The position numbers were made by a program, and so were the translations under genes. Of a stretch of 64,000 bases of DNA, positions 38,779 through 48,211 are shown one piece after another. The notes below the pieces were generated by a model. The model had not been told where the DNA came from, searched no databases, and worked only from the letters and a program-made list of their open reading frames with translations. Every line of letters begins with the position of its first letter. Position 1 is the stretch's first letter. This DNA is from Microbacterium lacticum. GTDB taxonomy: Bacteria; Actinomycetota; Actinomycetes; Actinomycetales; Microbacteriaceae. Where the stretch lies: positions 1 to 64,000 of the forward strand of contig NZ_VFPS01000004.1 of assembly GCF_006716815.1 (NCBI RefSeq). Reading direction: 5' to 3'.

Positions 38779-40119
38779 TTAGGGGGCGAGACGGGTCGGG
38801 CCGCGGAAGAGGAAGGTGACCTCGCGGATCGAGTCCTGACCGAGCATCAGCATGAGCACGCGTGCGAGCCCCATGCCGAAGCCGCCGTGCGGCGGGATGC
38901 CGTAGCGGAAGAAGTCGAGGTAGTGCTCGAGGCCCTCGAGCGACAGACCCTTCTCGACCGCCTGCGCCTCGAGCACGTCGATCCGGTGCTCGCGCTGCGC
39001 GCCCGTCGTGATCTCGGTGCCGCGGAAGAGGAGGTCGTAGCTGCAGGTGAGGCCGGTCTCGGCGTCGCGCATGTGGTAGAACGGCCGGATCTCGGGGTGG
39101 TAGTCGGTGATGAACACGAACTGGTGCCCGTAGGTCTCCTGCACGTGCGCGGAGATCTGGCGCTCGCCCTCGGGGTCGAGGTCGCCATCGGTGCGCGGGA
39201 TGTCGTAGCCGCGGCCCTTCACGATCTCGCGGGCCTCGGCGAGCGGGATGCGCGGGAACGGGAGGCTCGGCACGACGACGTCGACGTCGAAGAGCTCCTT
39301 GATCTCGTCGGCGTGCTTGTCCTTGACGGCCTGGAAGGCGACCGCGAGCAGTTCCTCCTGCATCTGCGCGACGTCTTCGTACGAGTCGATCCACGACAGT
39401 TCGGCGTCGATCGAGGTGAACTCGGTCGCGTGGCGGCTCGTGAAGCTCGGGTCGGCGCGGAACACGTCGCCGATCTCGAACACCTTGCCGAAGCCGGCGG
39501 CCTGAGCCATCTGCTTGAAGTGCTGCGGGCTCTGCGCGAGGTAGGCCGTCTGGTCGCCGAAGTACTCCAGCGCGAAGAGCTCGGCGTTGCCCTCGGCGGG
39601 CGTCGACATCAGCTTGGGCGAGTGGATCTCGACGTAGTCGCGCTCGACCCAGTAGTTGCGCATCGCGTGCTCGAGCGTCGTCTGGATGCGGAAGATCAGG
39701 TTGTTGCGGCGCTGGCGCAGGTCGATGAAGCGCCAGTCCATGCGCTTGTCGAGGCCGCTGTCGGCCGCGATCGGGGTCTCGGGCAGGGCCGCGGCGGCGA
39801 TCTCGAGGCCGCCGATCTTGATCTCGACACCGCTGAGCTTGACGCGCTCGTCGTGCTTGAGGTCGCCCGTGACCGTCAGGAAGGTGCCGGTCGACAGTTC
39901 CGAGATGAGTGCGGTGAGCTCGAGCGCCGCAGCATCCTGCTCGGCGCCCTCCGGGTCGGGGCGGGTCGCGGGGTTCACGAGCTGCACGGCGCCGGTCTCA
40001 TCGCGCAGGATGACGAACTGCACCTTCTTCTGATCGCGGACGGTCTCGACCCATCCGGAGACGCGGACGGGTCCGTCTTCACGGGACTGCAGCTGGTTCA
40101 CGAGGGTGCGTTCGGTCAC
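38779..40119 (-). CDS. aspS: Aspartate-tRNA(Asp/Asn) ligase, archaeal-type (non-discriminating)
   Basis: A 446-residue class II synthetase. The OB domain has VRVSGWVETVRDQKKVQFVI. The catalytic domain has AYLAQSPQHFKQMAQAAGFG, VFRADPSFTSRHATEFTSID (motif 2) and GIPPHGGFGMGLARVLMLML (motif 3). It is much shorter than bacterial AspRS and lacks the GAD insert. Such enzymes charge both tRNA-Asp and tRNA-Asn, with GatCAB amidating the latter. TAGACT lies 8 nt before the GTG at 40119. Confidence 0.92.
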   Translation of the reverse strand: MTERTLVNQLQSREDGPVRVSGWVETVRDQKKVQFVILRDETGAVQLVNPATRPDPEGAEQDAAALELTALISELSTGTFLTVTGDLKHDERVKLSGVEIKIGGLEIAAAALPETPIAADSGLDKRMDWRFIDLRQRRNNLIFRIQTTLEHAMRNYWVERDYVEIHSPKLMSTPAEGNAELFALEYFGDQTAYLAQSPQHFKQMAQAAGFGKVFEIGDVFRADPSFTSRHATEFTSIDAELSWIDSYEDVAQMQEELLAVAFQAVKDKHADEIKELFDVDVVVPSLPFPRIPLAEAREIVKGRGYDIPRTDGDLDPEGERQISAHVQETYGHQFVFITDYHPEIRPFYHMRDAETGLTCSYDLLFRGTEITTGAQREHRIDVLEAQAVEKGLSLEGLEHYLDFFRYGIPPHGGFGMGLARVLMLMLGQDSIREVTFLFRGPTRLAP

Positions 40120-40240
40120 GAGGAGCCAGTCTACGCGGCGGGCGCCGTGCGCTCGGGGTGCGCGAGCTCTCAGTGGGGTGGCGCGCGGCCCCCGGCATCC
40201 GCTCAGGTTCTCGTCACCTTGTCCCCGTAGCGTCGCGGGC

Positions 40241-40909
40241 ATGACGACTCCCGACGGCTCCTGGTTGACCGCGCTCGTCGACGGAGTCGTCGGCCTCATG
40301 GATCTCATCGGGGCGCCGGGCGCCGGCATCGCGATCGCGCTCGAGAACCTCTTCCCCCCGCTGCCGAGCGAGGTGATCCTGCCGATGGCGGGGCTCGCCG
40401 CCGCGCGCGGGTCGTTCACGCTGTTCGAGGCGCTGTTCTGGACCACCGCCGGCTCGGTCGTCGGCGCGTTCGCCCTCTACGGCCTGGGCGCGCTGCTCGG
40501 CCTCGAGCGGCTGCGGACGATCGCGCGGCGCACCCCGCTGCTGCACGTCGAAGACGTCGACCGCACGGTCGCCTGGTTCTCCCGCCACGGCGGCAAGGCG
40601 GTGTTCTTCGGTCGGATGCTGCCGATCTTCCGGAGCCTCATCTCGATCCCCGCCGGCGTCGTGCGCATGCCGCTCTGGCGGTTCGGGCTGCTCACCCTCG
40701 CGGGGTCGCTCCTCTGGAACAGCGTCTTCGTGCTGTCGGGGTACCTCCTCGGCGAGCAGTGGCACATCGTCGAGGAGTACGCCGGCATCCTGCAGTACGT
40801 CGTCATCGCTGCGGCGGCGGCCGCCCTCGTCTGGTTCACCGTCACCCGCGTGCGCCAGCTGCGCGGTCGGCAGGGGCGCCGACGCGCTGTGGACAGCGAC
40901 CCCGCCTGA
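40241..40909 (+). CDS. DedA-family membrane protein
   Basis: A 222-residue DedA/SNARE-associated protein. IALENLFPPLPSEVILPMAG carries the acidic and proline motif, and FFGRMLPIFRSLISIPAGVV the conserved arginines, with several hydrophobic segments. The family moves undecaprenyl phosphate or phospholipids across the membrane and supports membrane potential homeostasis. TAGCGT lies 7 nt before the ATG. It is divergent from aspS. Confidence 0.93.
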   Translation: MTTPDGSWLTALVDGVVGLMDLIGAPGAGIAIALENLFPPLPSEVILPMAGLAAARGSFTLFEALFWTTAGSVVGAFALYGLGALLGLERLRTIARRTPLLHVEDVDRTVAWFSRHGGKAVFFGRMLPIFRSLISIPAGVVRMPLWRFGLLTLAGSLLWNSVFVLSGYLLGEQWHIVEEYAGILQYVVIAAAAAALVWFTVTRVRQLRGRQGRRRAVDSDPA

Positions 40910-40935: not shown

Positions 40936-42591
40936 ATGACCCCCGCCGCCGGCGCCGGCATGCCGCTGCGCGACTACCGCATCCACCGCTACGTCAACGC
41001 GTTCTGCCCGCGCTGCCACGAGGAGGATCCCGACCGCCCGCTCTCCGAGGTGCGCCGGCTGTCGGGCTGGCTCGCCGACCGCGACGGCACCGTCTGGCTC
41101 GAACGCGGATGCCCCGACCACGGCCTGATCTCGACGCTCTACGACGAGTCGGCCGACCTGCTGCGCTATCTCGAGCAGTGGACCGCGCCCACGAAAGTGC
41201 ACGGGCCCGACACGACCGCGAACTTCAAGCCCGTGCCCTCGGCGTACGAGGACGGGCTGCCGCAGATGCAGACCCAGCACACGTGCATCCTGCTCGAAGA
41301 CCTCACCGACCACTGCAATCTGCGGTGCCCCACGTGCTTCGCCGAATCGACCCCCGCGGCGAGCGCGATCGCGCCGTTGGCCGAGGTGCTGGCATCCGTC
41401 GACGCGCGCCTCGCGAAAGAGAACCAGCGGATCGACGTGCTCATGCTCTCGGGCGGTGAGCCGACGCTCTACCCCTGGCTCGAGCAGCTGCTGGAGCAGC
41501 TGGTCGCACGCCCCATCGTTCGCATCCTGCTGAACTCGAACGGCCTGCGCATCGCGAACGACGACGCGTTCGTGCAGACGCTGAAGAAGCACCGCGAACG
41601 CGTCGAGGTCTACCTGCAGTACGACGGCGAGTCGGCCGAGGCATCCGCCTACCATCGCGGCGCCGACATCCGCCGCTTCAAGGAGCGCGCCCTAGAGCGT
41701 CTGTCGGATGCCGGGGTGTTCACGACGCTCACGATGACCGCCGCCCTCGGGGTCAACGACGGCGAGATCGGCGCCGTCATCCGCCGGGCGATGGCGACGC
41801 CGTACGTCGGCGGCGTGACGATCCAACCGGTCTTCGGCTCGGGGCGCTCCGCAGGCATCGACCCGAACGAGCGGCTCACCCACACGGGTGTGCTCGCGCG
41901 GCTCGGCCCGCAGACGAACGACCTCATGACCTGGCGCGACCTCACGGCGCTGCCCTGCAGCCACCCGCACTGCTGCTCGGTCGGCTACTTCCTGAAGGAC
42001 GACGGCGGCGAGTGGCGCTCGCTCGTCGGGCTCATCGGCCACGAGCGCCTGAAGGAGTTCCTCGACCTCAACCCCGACCTCCTCGCGAACCGGATCGCCG
42101 ACTCGAACGTCAACAAGGCGATCCGCGACGTCGTGAAGAGCTCGCTGCTCGACCTGCTGAGCGAGCAGTCGTCGCTCTCGCATCCGTCGATGAGCGACAT
42201 CTGGCGCGACATCTGCGTGAACTGCGACCTCGGCATCGGCACCCTCGCGACCCTCGCCGCCTCGAAGCTGCCCGGTCAGCATCAGCGGCTGCGCCGCATG
42301 CTCGCCGATCGCGTGCTGCGCGTCACCGTGAAGCCGTTCATGGACATCAACACGATGATCGAGGAGCGCCTCACGCAGTGCTGCGTGCACGTCGCGACCG
42401 TGAACGAAGAGACCTCCGTCCACCAGTGCGCGCCGTTCTGCGCTGTACAGGCGTGGGCGCCCCTCTCGCGCACACGCATCTCGACCGCGACCGGCAGCGC
42501 CGCCGCCCGTGCGGGAGGGGACGCGACAGGTGGCGCGACCAGCATCGGGTCCGGCGGCCGCCGACAGCTGCCCGTGACGGTGGCGACGTGA
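40936..42591 (+). CDS. Multi-cysteine radical SAM protein, tetraether/membrane-spanning lipid synthase-like
   Basis: A 551-residue protein. An N-terminal zinc- or rubredoxin-like part has C24-P-R-C27 and ERGCPDHG (C59). The radical SAM cluster is C127-x3-C131-x2-C134 in DHCNLRCPTCFAES, followed by MLSGGEPTLYPWL. The C-terminal part has further clusters (LPCSHPHCCSVGY, DICVNCDLG, TQCCVHVATV, HQCAPFCAVQ). This arrangement, CP-x-C...CxxHG then SAM core then extra cysteine clusters, resembles archaeal Tes (MJ0619-like) and bacterial membrane-spanning lipid synthases, which join lipid chains by C-C bonds. The actual substrate is unknown. TAGCGT lies 6 nt before the ATG. It overlaps the next gene (GTGA). 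Confidence 0.8.
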   Translation: MTPAAGAGMPLRDYRIHRYVNAFCPRCHEEDPDRPLSEVRRLSGWLADRDGTVWLERGCPDHGLISTLYDESADLLRYLEQWTAPTKVHGPDTTANFKPVPSAYEDGLPQMQTQHTCILLEDLTDHCNLRCPTCFAESTPAASAIAPLAEVLASVDARLAKENQRIDVLMLSGGEPTLYPWLEQLLEQLVARPIVRILLNSNGLRIANDDAFVQTLKKHRERVEVYLQYDGESAEASAYHRGADIRRFKERALERLSDAGVFTTLTMTAALGVNDGEIGAVIRRAMATPYVGGVTIQPVFGSGRSAGIDPNERLTHTGVLARLGPQTNDLMTWRDLTALPCSHPHCCSVGYFLKDDGGEWRSLVGLIGHERLKEFLDLNPDLLANRIADSNVNKAIRDVVKSSLLDLLSEQSSLSHPSMSDIWRDICVNCDLGIGTLATLAASKLPGQHQRLRRMLADRVLRVTVKPFMDINTMIEERLTQCCVHVATVNEETSVHQCAPFCAVQAWAPLSRTRISTATGSAAARAGGDATGGATSIGSGGRRQLPVTVAT

Positions 42592-42932
42592 GCGCCGCCG
42601 ACCTCTCGGGCGCGGACTACTCGCACCTCAACCGGCGCGATGAGACGGTGCCGGATGCAACGGCGCCCTACGATCCGCTGCGGCTGTGCGTCTTCACGAC
42701 GATCGCCCTCATCGCGTGCGTCGCGGGCCCGGTCGCGGTGCTCACGTTCGCGGCTGTGGCGATCGCCGGGTACGCGCGTGCCCGCCGGGCGGGACTGCTG
42801 CGCTCGCGCTGCAAGCTCGGTGACACCCGCAACGTGCTGATCTACCTTTGGACCGTCGCGGTGCTCGCCGCCGCGGCGACCCCGTTCTGGGTGCTGCTCT
42901 GGGTGCGCGTCCTCTCGCCGGGGAGCGCCTGA
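42588..42932 (+). CDS. Small two-span membrane protein
   Basis: A 114-residue protein with two hydrophobic segments (LCVFTTIALIACVAGPVAVL... and VLIYLWTVAVLAAAATPFWV) separated by an Arg-rich loop. Its N-terminus is polar. I do not recognise a family. The start codon overlaps the stop of the radical SAM gene, and the Lgt-like gene begins 3 bp after its stop, so the three are coupled. Confidence 0.75.
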   Translation: MSAADLSGADYSHLNRRDETVPDATAPYDPLRLCVFTTIALIACVAGPVAVLTFAAVAIAGYARARRAGLLRSRCKLGDTRNVLIYLWTVAVLAAAATPFWVLLWVRVLSPGSA

Positions 42933-42935
42933 GCG

Positions 42936-43769
42936 GTGTTCCCGACCCTCAACGATCTCGCACCGTGGCTGCCGGGCTGGGGCAGCCACGAGACCTTCGT
43001 CGCGCTCGGCCTCTGCGCCGCCGGGGTCGTGTTCCTGATCGAGAAACGGCGCCGCGGGGTGAGCGATCCCCGCATCCCCTACCTCGTCCTCGGCGCGCTC
43101 GCCGGGGCCGCGATCCTGTCGCGCCTCGGCACGTGGGCGCAGCACCTCGACCCGTCGAAGAACCTGAGCTTCGTCGACCAGCTCATCCACGGCAACGCCT
43201 CGATGCTCTCCGCGCTCGTCGGCGCGTGGCTCGGTGTGCACGTGGCCAAGCGCATCGTGCGCTACCCCGACCGCACGGGCGACCTGTTCGCCCCCGCGGT
43301 CGCCCTCGCGATGTGCATCGGGCGCATCGGATGCCTGTTGACCGAGCGTCCCGGCACGCCGACCGGTCAGGGCTGGGGCATCGTGTTGAGCCCCGACGCC
43401 GCCGCTCGCACCGGATCGCCCGCGGGCGTCCCGCTGCACCCGAGCTTCGTGTACGAGATCGCCTTTCACGCCGCCGCCTTCGCGCTGCTGTGGTTCTGGC
43501 TGCGTCACCGCCGCATCGCCGCGGGCGAGACGCTGACCCTCTACATCGCGGCGTACGGCGTCTTCCGCTTTCTCATCGAGTTCGTCCGCGGCAACGACAT
43601 CGCCTGGATGGGGTTCACCCGCCCGCAGCTCTTCCTCATGGTCACGATCCCGATCCTGCTCGCCCGCATCGCCGTCATGGCGCGCCGTGGGGCGTTCGGG
43701 CCGGGAATGCCGGCCGTCGAGGCATCCGTCGCCGATCAGAACAGGAGCCCCCGTGAGCAGCACGCCTGA
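42936..43769 (+). CDS. Lgt-like (prolipoprotein diacylglyceryl transferase family) membrane protein
   Basis: A 277-residue polytopic membrane protein. MCIGRIGCLLTERPGTPTGQ matches the Lgt GRxGNFxN...GxPT block but has Cys where Lgt has the Asn. LHPSFVYEIAFHAAAFALLW matches PSQLYE, and FRFLIEFVRGNDIAW matches RFxVEFxR. Lgt transfers diacylglycerol from phosphatidylglycerol to lipoproteins. With the altered key motif and the radical SAM neighbour, this one may act on another lipid acceptor. It may also be a diverged Lgt paralogue; a standard lgt is expected elsewhere in the genome. Confidence 0.75.
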   Translation: MFPTLNDLAPWLPGWGSHETFVALGLCAAGVVFLIEKRRRGVSDPRIPYLVLGALAGAAILSRLGTWAQHLDPSKNLSFVDQLIHGNASMLSALVGAWLGVHVAKRIVRYPDRTGDLFAPAVALAMCIGRIGCLLTERPGTPTGQGWGIVLSPDAAARTGSPAGVPLHPSFVYEIAFHAAAFALLWFWLRHRRIAAGETLTLYIAAYGVFRFLIEFVRGNDIAWMGFTRPQLFLMVTIPILLARIAVMARRGAFGPGMPAVEASVADQNRSPREQHA

Positions 43770-44331
43770 CGACCCCGAGCGCACCCCCGCCGACGAGCCC
43801 GCGCACGAGCAGCCCGTCGACCCGGCCATTGAGGGAGCGGCGGGACAGACCCCTGCAGCGCCGCCGCCGGGGGAGAACCCGACTCCGGCGGTGCCCCCCG
43901 CGCAGCCGCCGGCGTATCCGGCGGGGGCATATCCGCCCGGCGCGTATCCGCCTGGTGCGTCCGCGCCCGGCGCCTACCCTCCGGGTGCGTACCCGCCCGG
44001 CGCGTACCCTCCGGGGGCCTACCCTCCGGGTGCGTACGCGCAGTCGTACGCGCCGCCGCCACGCGGGTCGCAGCCGCTCGGCGTCGGTGCGGGCGCGGGA
44101 ATCGGGTGCGGCCTGCACTTCGTGGCGTTCTTCTTCGGGCTGCTGCTGCTGAGCGCCGGCGGCGGGTCGGGGATCGGGTTCTTCATCCCGTTCATGGTCA
44201 TCGCCGTCGGCGCGATCGTCATGATGTTCTTCCCGCAGACGCGCAAGCTCGCCACCGGGATGCTCATCATCGTCGCCGCGGCGTGGCTCATCGTGCTCGG
44301 TCCGTGCCTCGGGTTGGTGACGCAGTACTGA
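43753..44331 (+). CDS. YPPGA-repeat membrane protein
   Basis: A 192-residue protein. An acidic, Pro-rich head is followed by about nine near-identical YPPGA-type repeats (residues 60-98), then two hydrophobic segments (FVAFFFGLLLLSAGGG... and GMLIIVAAAWLIVLGPCLGL). The repeats are 15-bp DNA units. Proline-rich cytoplasmic heads of this kind are common in actinobacterial membrane proteins and may bind partners. The GTG at 43753 follows AGGAG and overlaps the Lgt-like gene by 17 bp. Confidence 0.8.
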   Translation: MSSTPDDPERTPADEPAHEQPVDPAIEGAAGQTPAAPPPGENPTPAVPPAQPPAYPAGAYPPGAYPPGASAPGAYPPGAYPPGAYPPGAYPPGAYAQSYAPPPRGSQPLGVGAGAGIGCGLHFVAFFFGLLLLSAGGGSGIGFFIPFMVIAVGAIVMMFFPQTRKLATGMLIIVAAAWLIVLGPCLGLVTQY

Positions 44332-44394: not shown

Positions 44395-45024
44395 GTGCCC
44401 GCCGACCGCCTCCACCTCGTGCGCCACGGAGAGGTTCACAACCCCCAGCGCGTCCTGTACGGACGGCTGCCGAACTTCCGGCTGAGCGAGGACGGGCGAC
44501 GCATGGCGGCCGCCGCGGCGGAGTATGTGCAGGACCTCGGTCGCCCTGTCGCCGCTCTGTACGCCTCTCCGCTGCAGCGCACGCGCGAATCGTCCGAGCC
44601 GTTCACCGCGGCCTTCGGCCTCGACGCGATCATCGACGAACGCGTCATCGAGCCAACGAACGTGTTCGAAGGCAAGCGCATGCGACGCGCCCTCGCGAAC
44701 CCGGCGAACTGGCGCTACCTCAGCGATCCCTCGATCCCGAGCTGGGGCGAGCCCTACCTCGAAGTGGTGCAGCGGATGGATGCCGCGATGCGCGACGCCT
44801 GGGGTCAAGAGGACGGCGGGGACGTCGTGATCGTCTCGCACCAGCTGCCGATCTGGATCACGCACCTCGCCGTCGCTGGGCAGCCGCTGCGCCACGACCC
44901 GCGCAAGCGACGCTGCGCGCTGTCGAGCGTCACGAGCTTCGAGCGGCACGGCGACGAGTGGACCGAGGTCGACTACGCGGAACCGGCGACCACCGCCGGC
45001 AGCATCGACGTGGGAGCGGTGTGA
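44395..45024 (+). CDS. Histidine phosphatase (phosphoglycerate mutase family)
   Basis: A 209-residue branch-1 histidine phosphatase. The catalytic LHLVRHGEVHNPQ (R-H-G) is near the start, YASPLQRTRESSEPF has the second Arg, and VVIVSHQLPIW has the second His. The substrate is unknown. TAGACT lies 6 nt before the GTG. The stop overlaps the ATG of the TlpA-like gene, so it leads the cytochrome c biogenesis operon. Confidence 0.9.
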   Translation: MPADRLHLVRHGEVHNPQRVLYGRLPNFRLSEDGRRMAAAAAEYVQDLGRPVAALYASPLQRTRESSEPFTAAFGLDAIIDERVIEPTNVFEGKRMRRALANPANWRYLSDPSIPSWGEPYLEVVQRMDAAMRDAWGQEDGGDVVIVSHQLPIWITHLAVAGQPLRHDPRKRRCALSSVTSFERHGDEWTEVDYAEPATTAGSIDVGAV

Positions 45025-45623
45025 TGGGCCGCAGGATCTGGACCGGCATCGCCGCGGTCGCGCTCGCCGCGACCCTCACCGCCTGCACGAGCGCGAACGA
45101 CGACCTCGTCTCGCAGTACCAGCAGGGCGGCGGGCAGGGCTTCATCTCCGGTGACGGTCGCGTGCAGGAGATCCCCGTCGACCAGCGCGAGGCCGCCGTC
45201 GAGTTCTCCGGCACCGCCGTCGACGGCAGCACCGTGTCGAGCGCCGACTACGACGACACCGTGCTCGTGCTGAACTTCTGGTACGCCGGATGCGGACCGT
45301 GCCGTGCCGAGGCATCCACGCTGGAAGACACCTACCAGCAGGTCTCGCCGCAGGGAGCGCGCTTCCTCGGCGTGAACATCTACGACGGCCCCGAGCAGGC
45401 GACCGCCTTCGAGAAGACCTACGGCATCACCTACCCGTCGCTGATCGCGAAGGAAGACGCCGACCTCAAGCTCGCGTTCGCCGACTGGACGCCGCTGCAG
45501 TCGGTGCCCGTCACGCTCGTGCTCGATGCGCAGGGCCGCGTCGCCGCACGGTTCATCGGCCAGATCGAGAGCGGCTCGATCCTGCGCACCGTCATCGACG
45601 ACGTTCTCGCCGAGAAGTCGTGA
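45024..45623 (+). CDS. TlpA/ResA-like thiol-disulfide lipoprotein
   Basis: A 199-residue exported thioredoxin-like protein. The signal IWTGIAAVALAATLTACTSA has a lipobox with Cys 21. The redox motif is FWYAGCGPCRAEAS. VPVTLVLDAQGRVAARFIGQ is the cis-Pro and strand region. It reduces apocytochrome c cysteines in the exterior, receiving electrons from CcdA. It is followed by ccdA, resB and ccsB. Confidence 0.92.
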   Translation: MGRRIWTGIAAVALAATLTACTSANDDLVSQYQQGGGQGFISGDGRVQEIPVDQREAAVEFSGTAVDGSTVSSADYDDTVLVLNFWYAGCGPCRAEASTLEDTYQQVSPQGARFLGVNIYDGPEQATAFEKTYGITYPSLIAKEDADLKLAFADWTPLQSVPVTLVLDAQGRVAARFIGQIESGSILRTVIDDVLAEKS

Positions 45624-45633
45624 GGCTCGCGTC

Positions 45634-46431
45634 GTGAACGCCGGCTCCATCGTCTTCGACGGCGCGCTGTGGCTGGCGCTTCCCATCGCGATGCTCGCGG
45701 GGCTCATCTCCTTCCTCTCGCCGTGCGTGCTGCCGCTCGTGCCGGGCTATCTCGGATTCCTCGGCGGCGCCGCGGGCGCGACCGGCGGGACGACCACGGG
45801 GGTGGGTGGCGCGACCGCGGGTGCCGGCGGTGGGCGCACGGCGGCGCGGCGCGGCCGCGGCCGCCTGCTGCTGGGCGTCGTGCTCTTCATCGCCGGGTTC
45901 ACCGTCGTGTTCGTCGCGATGGGGGTGCTCGCCGGCTCGGTCGGGCGGTTCTTCATCCAGTACCAGGACCCGATCACGCGCGTGCTCGGCGTCGTCGTGA
46001 TCGTGATGGGCCTCGTCTTCCTCGGGGTGTTCGGGTTCGCCCAGCGCACCGTCAAGCCGCAGGTGCGCTCGAACCTCGGCCTCATCGGCGCGCCGCTCCT
46101 CGGCGTCGCGATGGGCATCGGCTGGGCCCCGTGCATCGGACCGACCTACACCGCGATCCTGTCCATCTCGCTGACCCAGGCCGACCCGTGGCGCGCCGTG
46201 GCGCTCGCCGTCGCCTACTCGCTCGGCCTCGGCATCCCGTTCGTGCTCCTCGCGGTCGGCTTCGGCTGGGCGACCCGCTCAGTCGCATTCCTCCGGCGGC
46301 ATATCCGCGCGGTCAACATCATCGGGGGCGTGCTGCTCGTGATCCTCGGCCTTCTCATGGTCACCGGCGTCTGGACCTCGGTCATGTCGCAGCTGCAGGG
46401 GGTGATCGGCAGTGTCGAGCTCCCTCTCTGA
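45634..46431 (+). CDS. ccdA: Cytochrome c biogenesis protein CcdA
   Basis: A 265-residue membrane protein with six or more spans. The redox cysteines are in FLSPCVLPLVPGYLGFLGG and GIGWAPCIGPTYTAILSISL. It moves reducing power from cytosolic thioredoxin to the TlpA-like protein. A Gly/Thr-rich loop of about 35 residues follows the first motif and is longer than usual. The GTG at 45634 is chosen; it is 10 bp downstream of the lipoprotein stop. Confidence 0.93.
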   Translation: MNAGSIVFDGALWLALPIAMLAGLISFLSPCVLPLVPGYLGFLGGAAGATGGTTTGVGGATAGAGGGRTAARRGRGRLLLGVVLFIAGFTVVFVAMGVLAGSVGRFFIQYQDPITRVLGVVVIVMGLVFLGVFGFAQRTVKPQVRSNLGLIGAPLLGVAMGIGWAPCIGPTYTAILSISLTQADPWRAVALAVAYSLGLGIPFVLLAVGFGWATRSVAFLRRHIRAVNIIGGVLLVILGLLMVTGVWTSVMSQLQGVIGSVELPL

Positions 46432-48211
46432 TCCGCTCCGGCCCGACGACCACGCCGACGGCGCGCCGCGCACCGGGCGTCCGACCGGTGACATCGCGCA
46501 GCCGCGGCTGGGCGTCGTCGGGTGGCTCCGCTGGGGCTGGCGGCAGCTGACCAGCATGCGCACGGCGCTCGTGCTGCTGCTGCTGCTCGCGATCGCCGCG
46601 ATCCCCGGATCGATCGTGCCGCAGCGCACCGCCGACCCCAACGGGGTCAGCCAGTACCGCACCGACAACCCCGATCTCTACCCGATCCTCGACCACCTGC
46701 AGCTGTTCGACGTGTACTCGTCGGCGTGGTTCTCGGCGATCTACATCCTGCTGTTCATCTCCCTGATCGGCTGCGTCATCCCGCGCACGACCCACCATTT
46801 GGGGGCGCTCCGCGCCCGGCCGCCGCGCACTCCCGTGCGCCTGTCGCGGCTCGACGACCACGCCGAGACGGTCCGTGCCGTGCCAGCGGGGAGGGATGCC
46901 TCCGACGAGGCATCCCACGCCGTCGACCTCGCGCAGCAGCAGCTGCGGAAGGCCGGCTACCGAGTCGAGCGGTACGACACGCCCGCCACGGCGAAGCGGC
47001 CCGCTGTCGCGTCGGTCTCGGCGGAGCGCGGCTACGCCCGCGAGACCGGCAACCTGATCTTCCACGGCGCGCTCGTCGGCGTGCTGCTCTCGGTCGGCAT
47101 CGGGGGAGGCCTGACCTACACGGGGCAGACCGTCATCGTCGAGGGCGACAGCTTCGTGAACTCCCTCGGCCTCGGCTACACCTCCTTCAACCCGGGCCGT
47201 TTCGTCGACACCGAGAGCCTTCCGCCCTACTCGCTCACCCTCGACAGCTTCGACGTGTCGTACGTGCCGGTCGGCGAGGCGGGGCAGGGCATGGCGGGCG
47301 ACTTCGCCGCGAACCTCACGACGCGCGAGCCCGGGCAGGACGCGAAGAAGCAGACCGTGCGGGTCAACCACCCGATCGACATGGCCGGCGACCGCGTCTA
47401 CCTGATGGGGAACGGCTACGCCCCGACCATCACGGTGCGAAACCCCGCGGGCGATGTGGTCTTCCGCGAAGACGTCGAGTTCCTGCCGCAGGACACGAAC
47501 ATGACCTCGCTCGGCGTCGTGAAGGTGCCCGACGGGCTGCCCGAGCAGATGGGGCTCGTCGGCTTCTTCTACCCGACCGCCGCGACGCTGCACTCGGGAG
47601 CGTTCACCTCGGCCTACCCGGCGCTCGCGAACCCGCTCCTCACCGTCGACGTCTACGTCGGCGACCTCGGCATCGACGACGGCACCCCGCGCAACGTCTA
47701 CGCCCTCGACACGAGCGGCATGACCCAGCTCACCGGACGCTCGATCGGCGTCGACTCGCTGAAGCTTGAGCCCGGGCAGACCGTCGACCTGCCGGACGGC
47801 CTCGGCACGATCACGTTCGACGACAACACCGCGACCGGCGGCGCGGAAACGGTGAAGCGCTACGTGTCGCTGTCGGTGCACCGCGACATCGGCGCTCCGT
47901 TCGTGCTGCTGTTCGCCGTGATCGCCCTGCTCGGCCTGCTCGCCGCACTCTTCGTGCCGCGCCGGCGCCTGTGGGTCAAGGCTGTGTCGACCGGGCCCGG
48001 CGAGCTCACGTTCGAGTACGCCGGCCTCGCGCGCGGTGAGGACCCCGCGATCGCCGTCGCGGTCGAGGGCCTGCAGCGCGAGCACCAGAGGGCGCTGGAT
48101 GCCGAGGGGTGGCCGGCGCAGGGATCCACCCCCACCGCGCCGTCGGACCCTGCTGCCACGCCGTCGTCGGCCTCGACGACGACCCCCGACGACGCGAACC
48201 TGCCCGCGTAG
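46412..48211 (+). CDS. resB: Cytochrome c biogenesis protein ResB
   Basis: A 599-residue membrane protein. An N-terminal pair of spans (LRWGWRQLTSMRTALVLLLL and WFSAIYILLFISLIGCVIPR), a third near residue 215, a large exterior domain and a last span near LLFAVIALLGLLAALFVPRR match ResB/Ccs1. With CcsB it exports heme and attaches it to apocytochrome c. Its start overlaps ccdA by 20 bp. Its TAG stop forms part of the TAGACT hexamer before ccsB. Confidence 0.94.
   Translation: MSSSLSDPLRPDDHADGAPRTGRPTGDIAQPRLGVVGWLRWGWRQLTSMRTALVLLLLLAIAAIPGSIVPQRTADPNGVSQYRTDNPDLYPILDHLQLFDVYSSAWFSAIYILLFISLIGCVIPRTTHHLGALRARPPRTPVRLSRLDDHAETVRAVPAGRDASDEASHAVDLAQQQLRKAGYRVERYDTPATAKRPAVASVSAERGYARETGNLIFHGALVGVLLSVGIGGGLTYTGQTVIVEGDSFVNSLGLGYTSFNPGRFVDTESLPPYSLTLDSFDVSYVPVGEAGQGMAGDFAANLTTREPGQDAKKQTVRVNHPIDMAGDRVYLMGNGYAPTITVRNPAGDVVFREDVEFLPQDTNMTSLGVVKVPDGLPEQMGLVGFFYPTAATLHSGAFTSAYPALANPLLTVDVYVGDLGIDDGTPRNVYALDTSGMTQLTGRSIGVDSLKLEPGQTVDLPDGLGTITFDDNTATGGAETVKRYVSLSVHRDIGAPFVLLFAVIALLGLLAALFVPRRRLWVKAVSTGPGELTFEYAGLARGEDPAIAVAVEGLQREHQRALDAEGWPAQGSTPTAPSDPAATPSSASTTTPDDANLPA

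Follow-up and report, generated by a model that had tools for sequence, protein, structure and literature searches.

The radical SAM (S-adenosylmethionine) enzyme GDGT-MAS joins two lipid chains, and density in its crystal was read as phosphatidic acid (PMC9433317). Bacterial homologues of this enzyme, also called Tes, are already in print (PMC9433317, PMC8941075, PMC11868695). The bacterial membrane-spanning lipid synthase Mss is described as having a Tes-like structure, joining chains and being paired with Ger (PMC13274423), and Mss homologues were reported in 17 of the 146 Actinobacteriota genomes of one data set (PMC11868695). The prolipoprotein diacylglyceryl transferase Lgt of Escherichia coli is inactivated by alanine at Y26, H103, R143, N146, G154 or R239; H103 is not conserved outside Proteobacteria, and a pair of arginines reportedly holds the phosphatidylglycerol phosphate in position (PMC13251419). 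Here we describe a cluster of four genes in which relatives of both enzymes stand side by side. It lies in the first 64,000 nucleotides (the window, read on the forward strand) of contig NZ_VFPS01000004.1 of Microbacterium lacticum (NCBI RefSeq assembly GCF_006716815.1), i.e. at the start of contig 4 of a genome of 3.09 Mb. The cluster is a genuine membrane module that is patchily inherited in actinobacteria, and on balance we think that it modifies lipids. Its component protein families are already known; no described actinobacterial system of this make-up was found in the openly licensed literature.

The genes encode a radical SAM protein (R), a protein of two membrane spans (TM2, or T), an Lgt-like protein (L) and a protein with a YPPGA repeat (Y). 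The features are:

40936..42591, + strand: R, radical SAM protein of the Tes/TrsS superfamily, 551 residues, from its open reading frame and matches of family and fold
40936..42591, + strand: motif layout of R, with an N-terminal CxxC...CxxH of rubredoxin type, the radical SAM CxxxCxxC and a C-terminal CC...C...PFC region
41242..41280, + strand: residues 103-115 of R, AYEDGLPQMQTQH, aligned with the [Fe4S4]N ligand stretch of GDGT-MAS, GCPYDCGLCPNH
42588..42932, + strand: T (TM2), small two-span membrane protein, 114 residues
42936..43769, + strand: L, Lgt-like membrane protein, 277 residues (Pfam LGT, E 3.9e-26; Lgt fold)
43332..43334, + strand: codon of Cys133 of L, aligned with the position of Asn146 of E. 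coli Lgt
43753..44331, + strand: Y, 192 residues, start read as GTG; Pro/Tyr/Gly-rich N-terminus and three-helix membrane domain
44305..44307, + strand: codon of Cys185 of Y, at the outer end of the last predicted helix (LGPC)

The four open reading frames had been proposed in a sequence-only reading of the window, and were borne out together with their spacing: the stop of R overlaps the start of T by 4 bp, 3 bp separate T from L, and L and Y overlap by 17 bp. The cysteine groups listed for R in that reading (CPRC, CPDHG, CNLRCPTC and later ones) are present, as is GRIGC in L in place of the canonical GRxGN. The cluster is more than a chance assembly, since 14 cysteines of R are fixed in all 79 family members compared (two more are kept in 77) and Cys133 of L, replacing the asparagine, is fixed in 77 of 77 relatives.

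The neighbourhood recurs in other genera, where the genes stand in varying order. It was compared in 80 named loci (the best 80 of 95 relatives of R), counting gene orders from matched domains and not from the starts of open reading frames. L is matched by tblastn in 77 of these, and in the three without it (L127, L135 and L140) R lies at the end of a contig. The order R-T-L-Y occurs in 45 loci, four of them with two copies of Y; L-Y-R occurs in 14, among them one that has a second Y and one in which T follows. L-R-T-Y is found in seven, R-T-L in four and L-R-T in four, and six have other or incomplete orders. Y is present in 69 loci, and five of the eleven that lack it are cut near that place (L081, L098, L117, L127 and L135). 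T is present in 63; L127 and L135, which lack it, are cut inside R.

Samples of genomes were searched with E-value limits that differ between the proteins (1e-15 for R, 1e-20 for L and 1e-4 for Y). Among 297 genomes of the order R is found in 17 and L in 17, and these are the identical 17 genomes. In 16 of them R and L are ~1 kb apart or less; in the other, G551, they are on two short contigs. Y is matched in 14 of the 297 genomes, 13 of these being module genomes with Y beside R or L; the fourteenth match, outside the module genomes, is partial and borderline (E 8e-5). In a sample of 396 genomes of the phylum R is found in 23, comprising ten at an identity of at least 56%, twelve distant at ~28-38%, and G352 with fragments only. 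L at an identity of at least 40% is present in exactly the ten phylum genomes that have close R, while in 11 further genomes, all of one family, L matches at 28-33% that resemble other Lgts where readable. R is also found in 23 of 78 sampled genomes of the genus taken as Mycobacterium (E <= 1e-100), and in named mycobacterial species.

Nearer to the window the distribution is uneven. The closest named relatives of R are from Microbacterium (93% identity in M. paulum), and R in loci of Arthrobacter, Tersicoccus and Psychromicrobium has 84-85% identity. In G489, from the window's own genus, R has only 64% identity and the order is L, Y, R, T, unlike that of the window. The sequence-only reading had proposed, as a check, to look for conservation of the four-gene order across the Microbacteriaceae. 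Genomes that have the module keep the order, but such genomes are rare: R is matched at E <= 0.001 in 29 of 150 sampled genomes of the family, and is close in two of these, the window's own and G138 (86% identity), the remaining matches being partial at 25-39%. This patchy spread suggests that the module has moved as a unit by horizontal transfer. We note that the R fragments of G352 (C31:652-1165; L060, L065) contain a stop codon, and that no close L was found in that genome; this copy of R is decaying or misassembled.

The same distribution bears on the possibility that L acts on ordinary lipoproteins as a second, weak prolipoprotein diacylglyceryl transferase, with unrelated passengers as neighbours. 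In its favour, the second Lgt homologue of Mycobacterium smegmatis, MSMEG_5408, which carries Y26H and N146C, is presumed to have low Lgt activity (PMC13251419). However, R and L occur in exactly the same genomes of the order sample and stay linked where the gene order is shuffled, which is unlike the behaviour of passengers, and the window genome contains an intact canonical Lgt elsewhere (C1:707092-707853). We regard this explanation as highly improbable.

R is a full-length relative of GDGT-MAS/Tes but is not Tes itself. Its best relative in the PDB is GDGT-MAS (7tol; E 1.1e-33, with residues 17-502 aligned), and its AlphaFold2 model matches 7tom with Z 41.1 (root-mean-square deviation 3.5 over 435 residues), the highest Z among other radical SAM folds being 19.4; neither Foldseek nor VIA-align gave anything better than 7tol/7tom. 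The Pfam Radical_SAM domain scores 63.5 bits and an N-terminal zinc ribbon of the HMPTM type scores 42.6 bits (cutoff 27). The rubredoxin-type site (C24, C27, C59 and H62) is kept in 79 of 79 family members, and its columns match those of MJ0619. The likeness to Tes that had been seen in the sequence, and for which structure prediction had been proposed as a check, is thus supported by sequence match, by fold and by the shared rubredoxin-type and C-terminal cysteine motifs. No unrelated family was found for R, though R fails features that define Tes itself. In a phylogenetic tree (15 of the 79 family members, 12 distant relatives, MJ0619 and two outgroup rows) the R family is one clade on a long branch with support 100/100, apart from MJ0619 and from TrsS-like rows; the tree leaves the sister group of the clade unsettled, and the program flagged long branches. 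The R alignment A2 contains 39 of the 79 R proteins. Elsewhere, in a distant actinobacterium (G506, C57; L057, L064), two different proteins of the Tes/TrsS superfamily are encoded close together.

L scores 92.3 bits against Pfam LGT (gathering score 24.9). Its predicted model is good (mean predicted local distance difference test score, pLDDT, 90.3) and matches E. coli Lgt (5azb) with Z 16.1 (root-mean-square deviation 4.4 over 238 residues), the next chain having Z 6.5; nothing better than 5azb was found for L by Foldseek or VIA-align. Likeness to Lgt, the second mainstay of the sequence-only reading, therefore stands, so that of that interpretation as a whole the relationships to Tes and Lgt hold and the gene order holds in part, while its membrane-spanning or chain-linked lipid is a possible product. 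Canonical positions were mapped onto L by alignment with the window genome's own Lgt. R143, R239 and G154 of the E. coli enzyme correspond to Arg130, Arg211 and Gly140 of L, each kept in 77 of 77 relatives, and Y235 and E243 correspond to Y207 and E215, both fixed. Tyr26 is replaced by His18 and Asn146 by Cys133 in all 77, and Asn149 by Thr136 in 75. The position of H103 is occupied by His85 in the window, and over the 77 rows by Tyr (24), Arg (16), Phe (16), His (14) and others. L stays below the NCBIfam equivalog cutoffs for Lgt, scoring 68.8 (cutoff 334) and 53.1 (cutoff 118.9) with the two models that fit it best. The L alignment A1 contains 53 of the 77 proteins.

The N146C substitution is not unique to the L family, as other divergent Lgts have cysteine there and further cysteines nearby, and the Lgt of Leptospira also has cysteine at this position (PMC13251419). 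In one other actinobacterial family (L191, L195, L196, L198, L199 and L201) Lgt homologues have GRLGC followed by further cysteines (NGCC) and represent another type of Lgt with N146C; the genomes concerned gave no close match to R. The window genome (G000) has two further Lgt homologues that both look broken, one cut short at C3:242538-242822 (L163) with nearby open reading frames that look transposase-like by eye, and one at C1:609963-610277 (L164/L165) with its middle lost.

Y is a fast-changing protein in which the nearly fixed residues are three glycines, one Arg/Lys and one cysteine. We assembled 76 sequences (from 69 named loci and the window, six loci having two copies). The conserved part is ~90 residues long, with three helices by a hydropathy count in 65 of the 76, and mean column identity is 30% in a 59-row subset. 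This subset, alignment A3, leaves out among others two copies without GxC, so that the trusted count for the cysteine is 74 of 76. The three glycines are the one at -2 from the cysteine (present in 75 sequences), one near the start of the last helix (75) and one within the first helix (76), and Lys or Arg stands 21 residues before the cysteine in 72 of the 74 sequences with GxC. The residue at -1 is Pro in 40, Val in 11 and Ile in 8 of the 76, and signal peptidase II should therefore not cut here. Lys and Arg are more frequent in loop 2-3 (154 of 705 residues) and before helix 1 (78 of 763) than in loop 1-2 (18 of 619; 64 sequences) and after the cysteine (10 of 706; 74 sequences). Since the positive charges sit before the first and last helices, the cysteine end is predicted to be outside, where Lgt works. 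Six loci have two copies of Y (L087, L110, L111, L128, L131 and L138), as might be expected of a substrate; GxC is absent from one copy in L128 and in L138.

The YPPGA repeat, by which the gene was designated in the sequence-only reading, does not hold up as a functional part of Y, several relatives having short N-termini that lack it; what is conserved is the C-terminal three-helix domain with its one membrane-edge cysteine, which that reading had overlooked. Mycobacterial members were among the seeds of the Y family, and a model made from Microbacteriaceae Y alone served as control. Searched over 8342 open reading frames, it found 40 outside the training loci at E <= 10, all of which are beside R, L or another Y by coordinates. 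In T, Cys34 and Cys75 are kept in 63 of 63 aligned relatives. Neither T nor Y has a Pfam or NCBIfam match above the curated cutoff, and homology between Y and TM2 was considered and is not supported (hhalign probabilities 1.7 and 0.4).

The radical SAM protein has small neighbours that evolve fast yet keep their cysteines, sometimes in two copies, and this could also suggest protein maturation, in which R would modify a peptide of Y or TM2 (e.g. by a C-C or thioether link at cysteine) and L would lipidate the product; the folds of SuiB and SkfB are indeed among the next matches to the R model. However, R is far closer to GDGT-MAS than to the peptide maturases (Z 41 against at most 19), the cysteine of Y is predicted to be outside whereas radical SAM enzymes are cytoplasmic, and the Pro/Tyr-rich N-terminus of Y is not conserved. 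We consider this improbable.

Our own proposal, made tentatively, is that the products of the four genes work together in the membrane, as one module, to build an unusual glycerolipid structure. L would use an outer-leaflet phospholipid, e.g. phosphatidylglycerol, and, helped by its own Cys133, would transfer a diacylglyceryl or acyl group to the cysteine of Y. Enzymes of the Lgt type depend on an acceptor thiol where a helix ends on the outer side, and in Y the module offers such a thiol, almost invariant in a protein that otherwise drifts; for these reasons the Y cysteine is a candidate acceptor of L, a less probable suggestion than lipid modification by the module as such. Y would be uncut by signal peptidase II, remaining a membrane protein lipidated near its C-terminus. 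R would sit on the cytoplasmic side of the membrane, where TM2, which has two fixed cysteines, may anchor it. We infer that R works on lipid chains because its nearest solved relative binds and joins them, and the lipidation of Y by L and the docking of R on TM2 are inferred likewise. R would abstract a hydrogen at an unactivated carbon in a lipid chain, and this carbon would then enter a new bond, most likely a C-C bond joining two chains as in GDGT-MAS; that R does join chain to chain is nevertheless doubtful. The product would be a modified or cross-linked lipid, anchored on Y or handed over by it, and a membrane-spanning lipid is possible. In the most specific form of the proposal, a membrane protein is lipidated by a dedicated system at a C-terminal, membrane-edge cysteine: L, an Lgt paralogue with an active-site cysteine, loads a glycerolipid onto Y, and R joins a tail of this lipid to a phospholipid of the opposite leaflet, so that a membrane-spanning lipid holds the protein. 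We think this distinctly improbable as it stands, and know of no such membrane-spanning lipid anchor of a protein. If true, Tes-type chemistry would extend to ordinary actinobacteria, among them some mycobacteria.

The full-length match of R to GDGT-MAS and its fold would also serve a scheme in which the product is a free membrane lipid and Y an assembly factor, R joining the acyl tails of two phospholipids (like Mss or Tes) that L supplies or moves, with no protein lipidated. Bacterial Mss is described as joining the chains of ester and ether lipids (PMC13274423), and L retains the arginine pair said to position the phosphate of phosphatidylglycerol. This scheme leaves the near-fixed cysteine at the helix end of Y unexplained and gives no reason for an Lgt-type protein as constant partner; nor did a single search of the openly licensed literature bring up a report of such lipids in Microbacterium. 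We judge it unlikely.

A number of observations weigh against the proposed lipid-building module, and are gathered here. The AlphaFold2 model of R is moderate (mean pLDDT 71.8, predicted template modelling score 0.79), with low stretches at several cysteines. The cysteine triplet of [Fe4S4]N (C73, C77 and C80 of GDGT-MAS) is present in 0 of the 15 family rows compared, against 12 of 13 rows that are neither family nor outgroup; His115, within the stretch aligned with the [Fe4S4]N ligands, is kept in 79 of 79. Loss of the triplet was considered as a unique mark of R and rejected, as the TrsS-like row L059 is also without it. Lys466 (79 of 79) stands at the position of Tes Met439 and Val486 (78 of 79) at that of Tyr459, both of which are reported to be fully conserved across 1000 archaeal homologues (PMC9433317). 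GDGT-MAS M439A is still active (PMC9433317), and so the change of Met439 to lysine says little alone. For L, the N146A substitution abolishes function in E. coli Lgt, so L may not transfer diacylglyceryl at all, and in the published account of the M. smegmatis homologue with Y26H and N146C low Lgt activity is presumed. The best NCBIfam model for R is TrsS (NF045646; 195 bits, cutoff 490, with 192 and 202 bits for two relatives), and not Tes (NF045702; 153 bits, cutoff 450).

The last observation could point to a cofactor or redox maturation like that of the poorly understood TrsS group, in which R would act at the membrane to modify either a metal/sulfur cofactor or some small molecule, with L and Y for transport or anchoring and L devoid of transferase activity. 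The missing N-terminal triplet in the TrsS-like row L059, the absence from L of two residues essential in E. coli Lgt and the two fixed cysteines of TM2 would all fit. Yet the TrsS and Tes scores are both far under their curated cutoffs, and the tree separates the R family from the TrsS-like rows, a separation made unsure by the long branches. Moreover, the fixed Arg130, Cys133, Glu137 and Arg211 of L suggest a working active site. We see cofactor maturation as an improbable function.

The remaining difficulties for the lipid-building module concern Y, T and linkage. Y is unmatched in six uncut named loci (L095, L132, L151, L152, L158 and L160) and was not detected in four of the 17 module genomes of the order (G551, G567, G694 and G813). 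T was not found in 15 further named loci, 11 of them mycobacterial (L148 ends soon after R). Mycobacterial Y resembles Microbacteriaceae Y weakly (hhalign probability 26%, E 7e-4; hidden Markov model E 0.0015 to 3), and so part of the Y family rests on position and motif; the Nocardia Y of L137 is unmatched by the model from Microbacteriaceae alone. The residues before the Y cysteine do not form a canonical lipobox (consensus [LVI][ASTVI][GAS]C), Gly being at -2 in 75 of the 76 sequences. The distances of R and L correlate with r 0.92 (77 rows), a correlation that shared descent by itself would also produce.

Through the module, one lineage of bacterial tetraether-synthase homologues gains a constant partner and a residue that is a candidate acceptor. 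With these, and with hosts that include named strains, what such homologues do can be tested by deletions and mass spectrometry. The module also suggests a role for a divergent Lgt (Y26H/N146C) hitherto read as a weak second copy.

Two neighbouring genes were considered as further members and rejected. A DedA/UptA-like gene at 40106-40909 adjoins R only in the window and in three of the 80 named loci (L081, L082 and L157, with a more distant copy in L150), and a histidine phosphatase at 44395-45024 is beside the module in two of the 80. Downstream of the module (window 44395-48211), the list of open reading frames read by eye shows this histidine phosphatase followed by a TlpA/CcdA/ResB-type set for cytochrome c maturation.

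R and L can be compared with the closest described systems. R shares with GDGT-MAS/Tes (MJ0619, 7tol/7tom) homology over its full length, the fold, CxxC...CxxH, CxxxCxxC and the CC...PFC region. It differs in lacking the [Fe4S4]N triplet, in Lys466 for Met439 and Val486 for Tyr459, in having an additional CSHPHCC and CxxC, and in its actinobacterial host and constant partner L. With the radical SAM (seleno)protein TrsS (NF045646) it has in common the loss of the N-terminal cysteine triplet, as seen in L059 (470 bits against the TrsS model), and is set apart by its score of 195 bits against the cutoff of 490 and by a separate branch of the tree. The partner of Mss is Ger, and the available part of its published description names no Lgt-like partner (PMC13274423). 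L resembles E. coli Lgt (5azb) in fold, in the equivalents of Arg143, Arg239 and Gly154 and in the motifs HPxxxYE and YxxxRxxxE, and differs from it by His18 for Tyr26, Cys133 for Asn146, Thr136 for Asn149 and a variable position of H103. MSMEG_5408 has the same two substitutions, Y26H and N146C, that are fixed in the L family, and judged by these is probably a member of it. As it bears this signature, we predict that R and Y will be found to adjoin MSMEG_5408.

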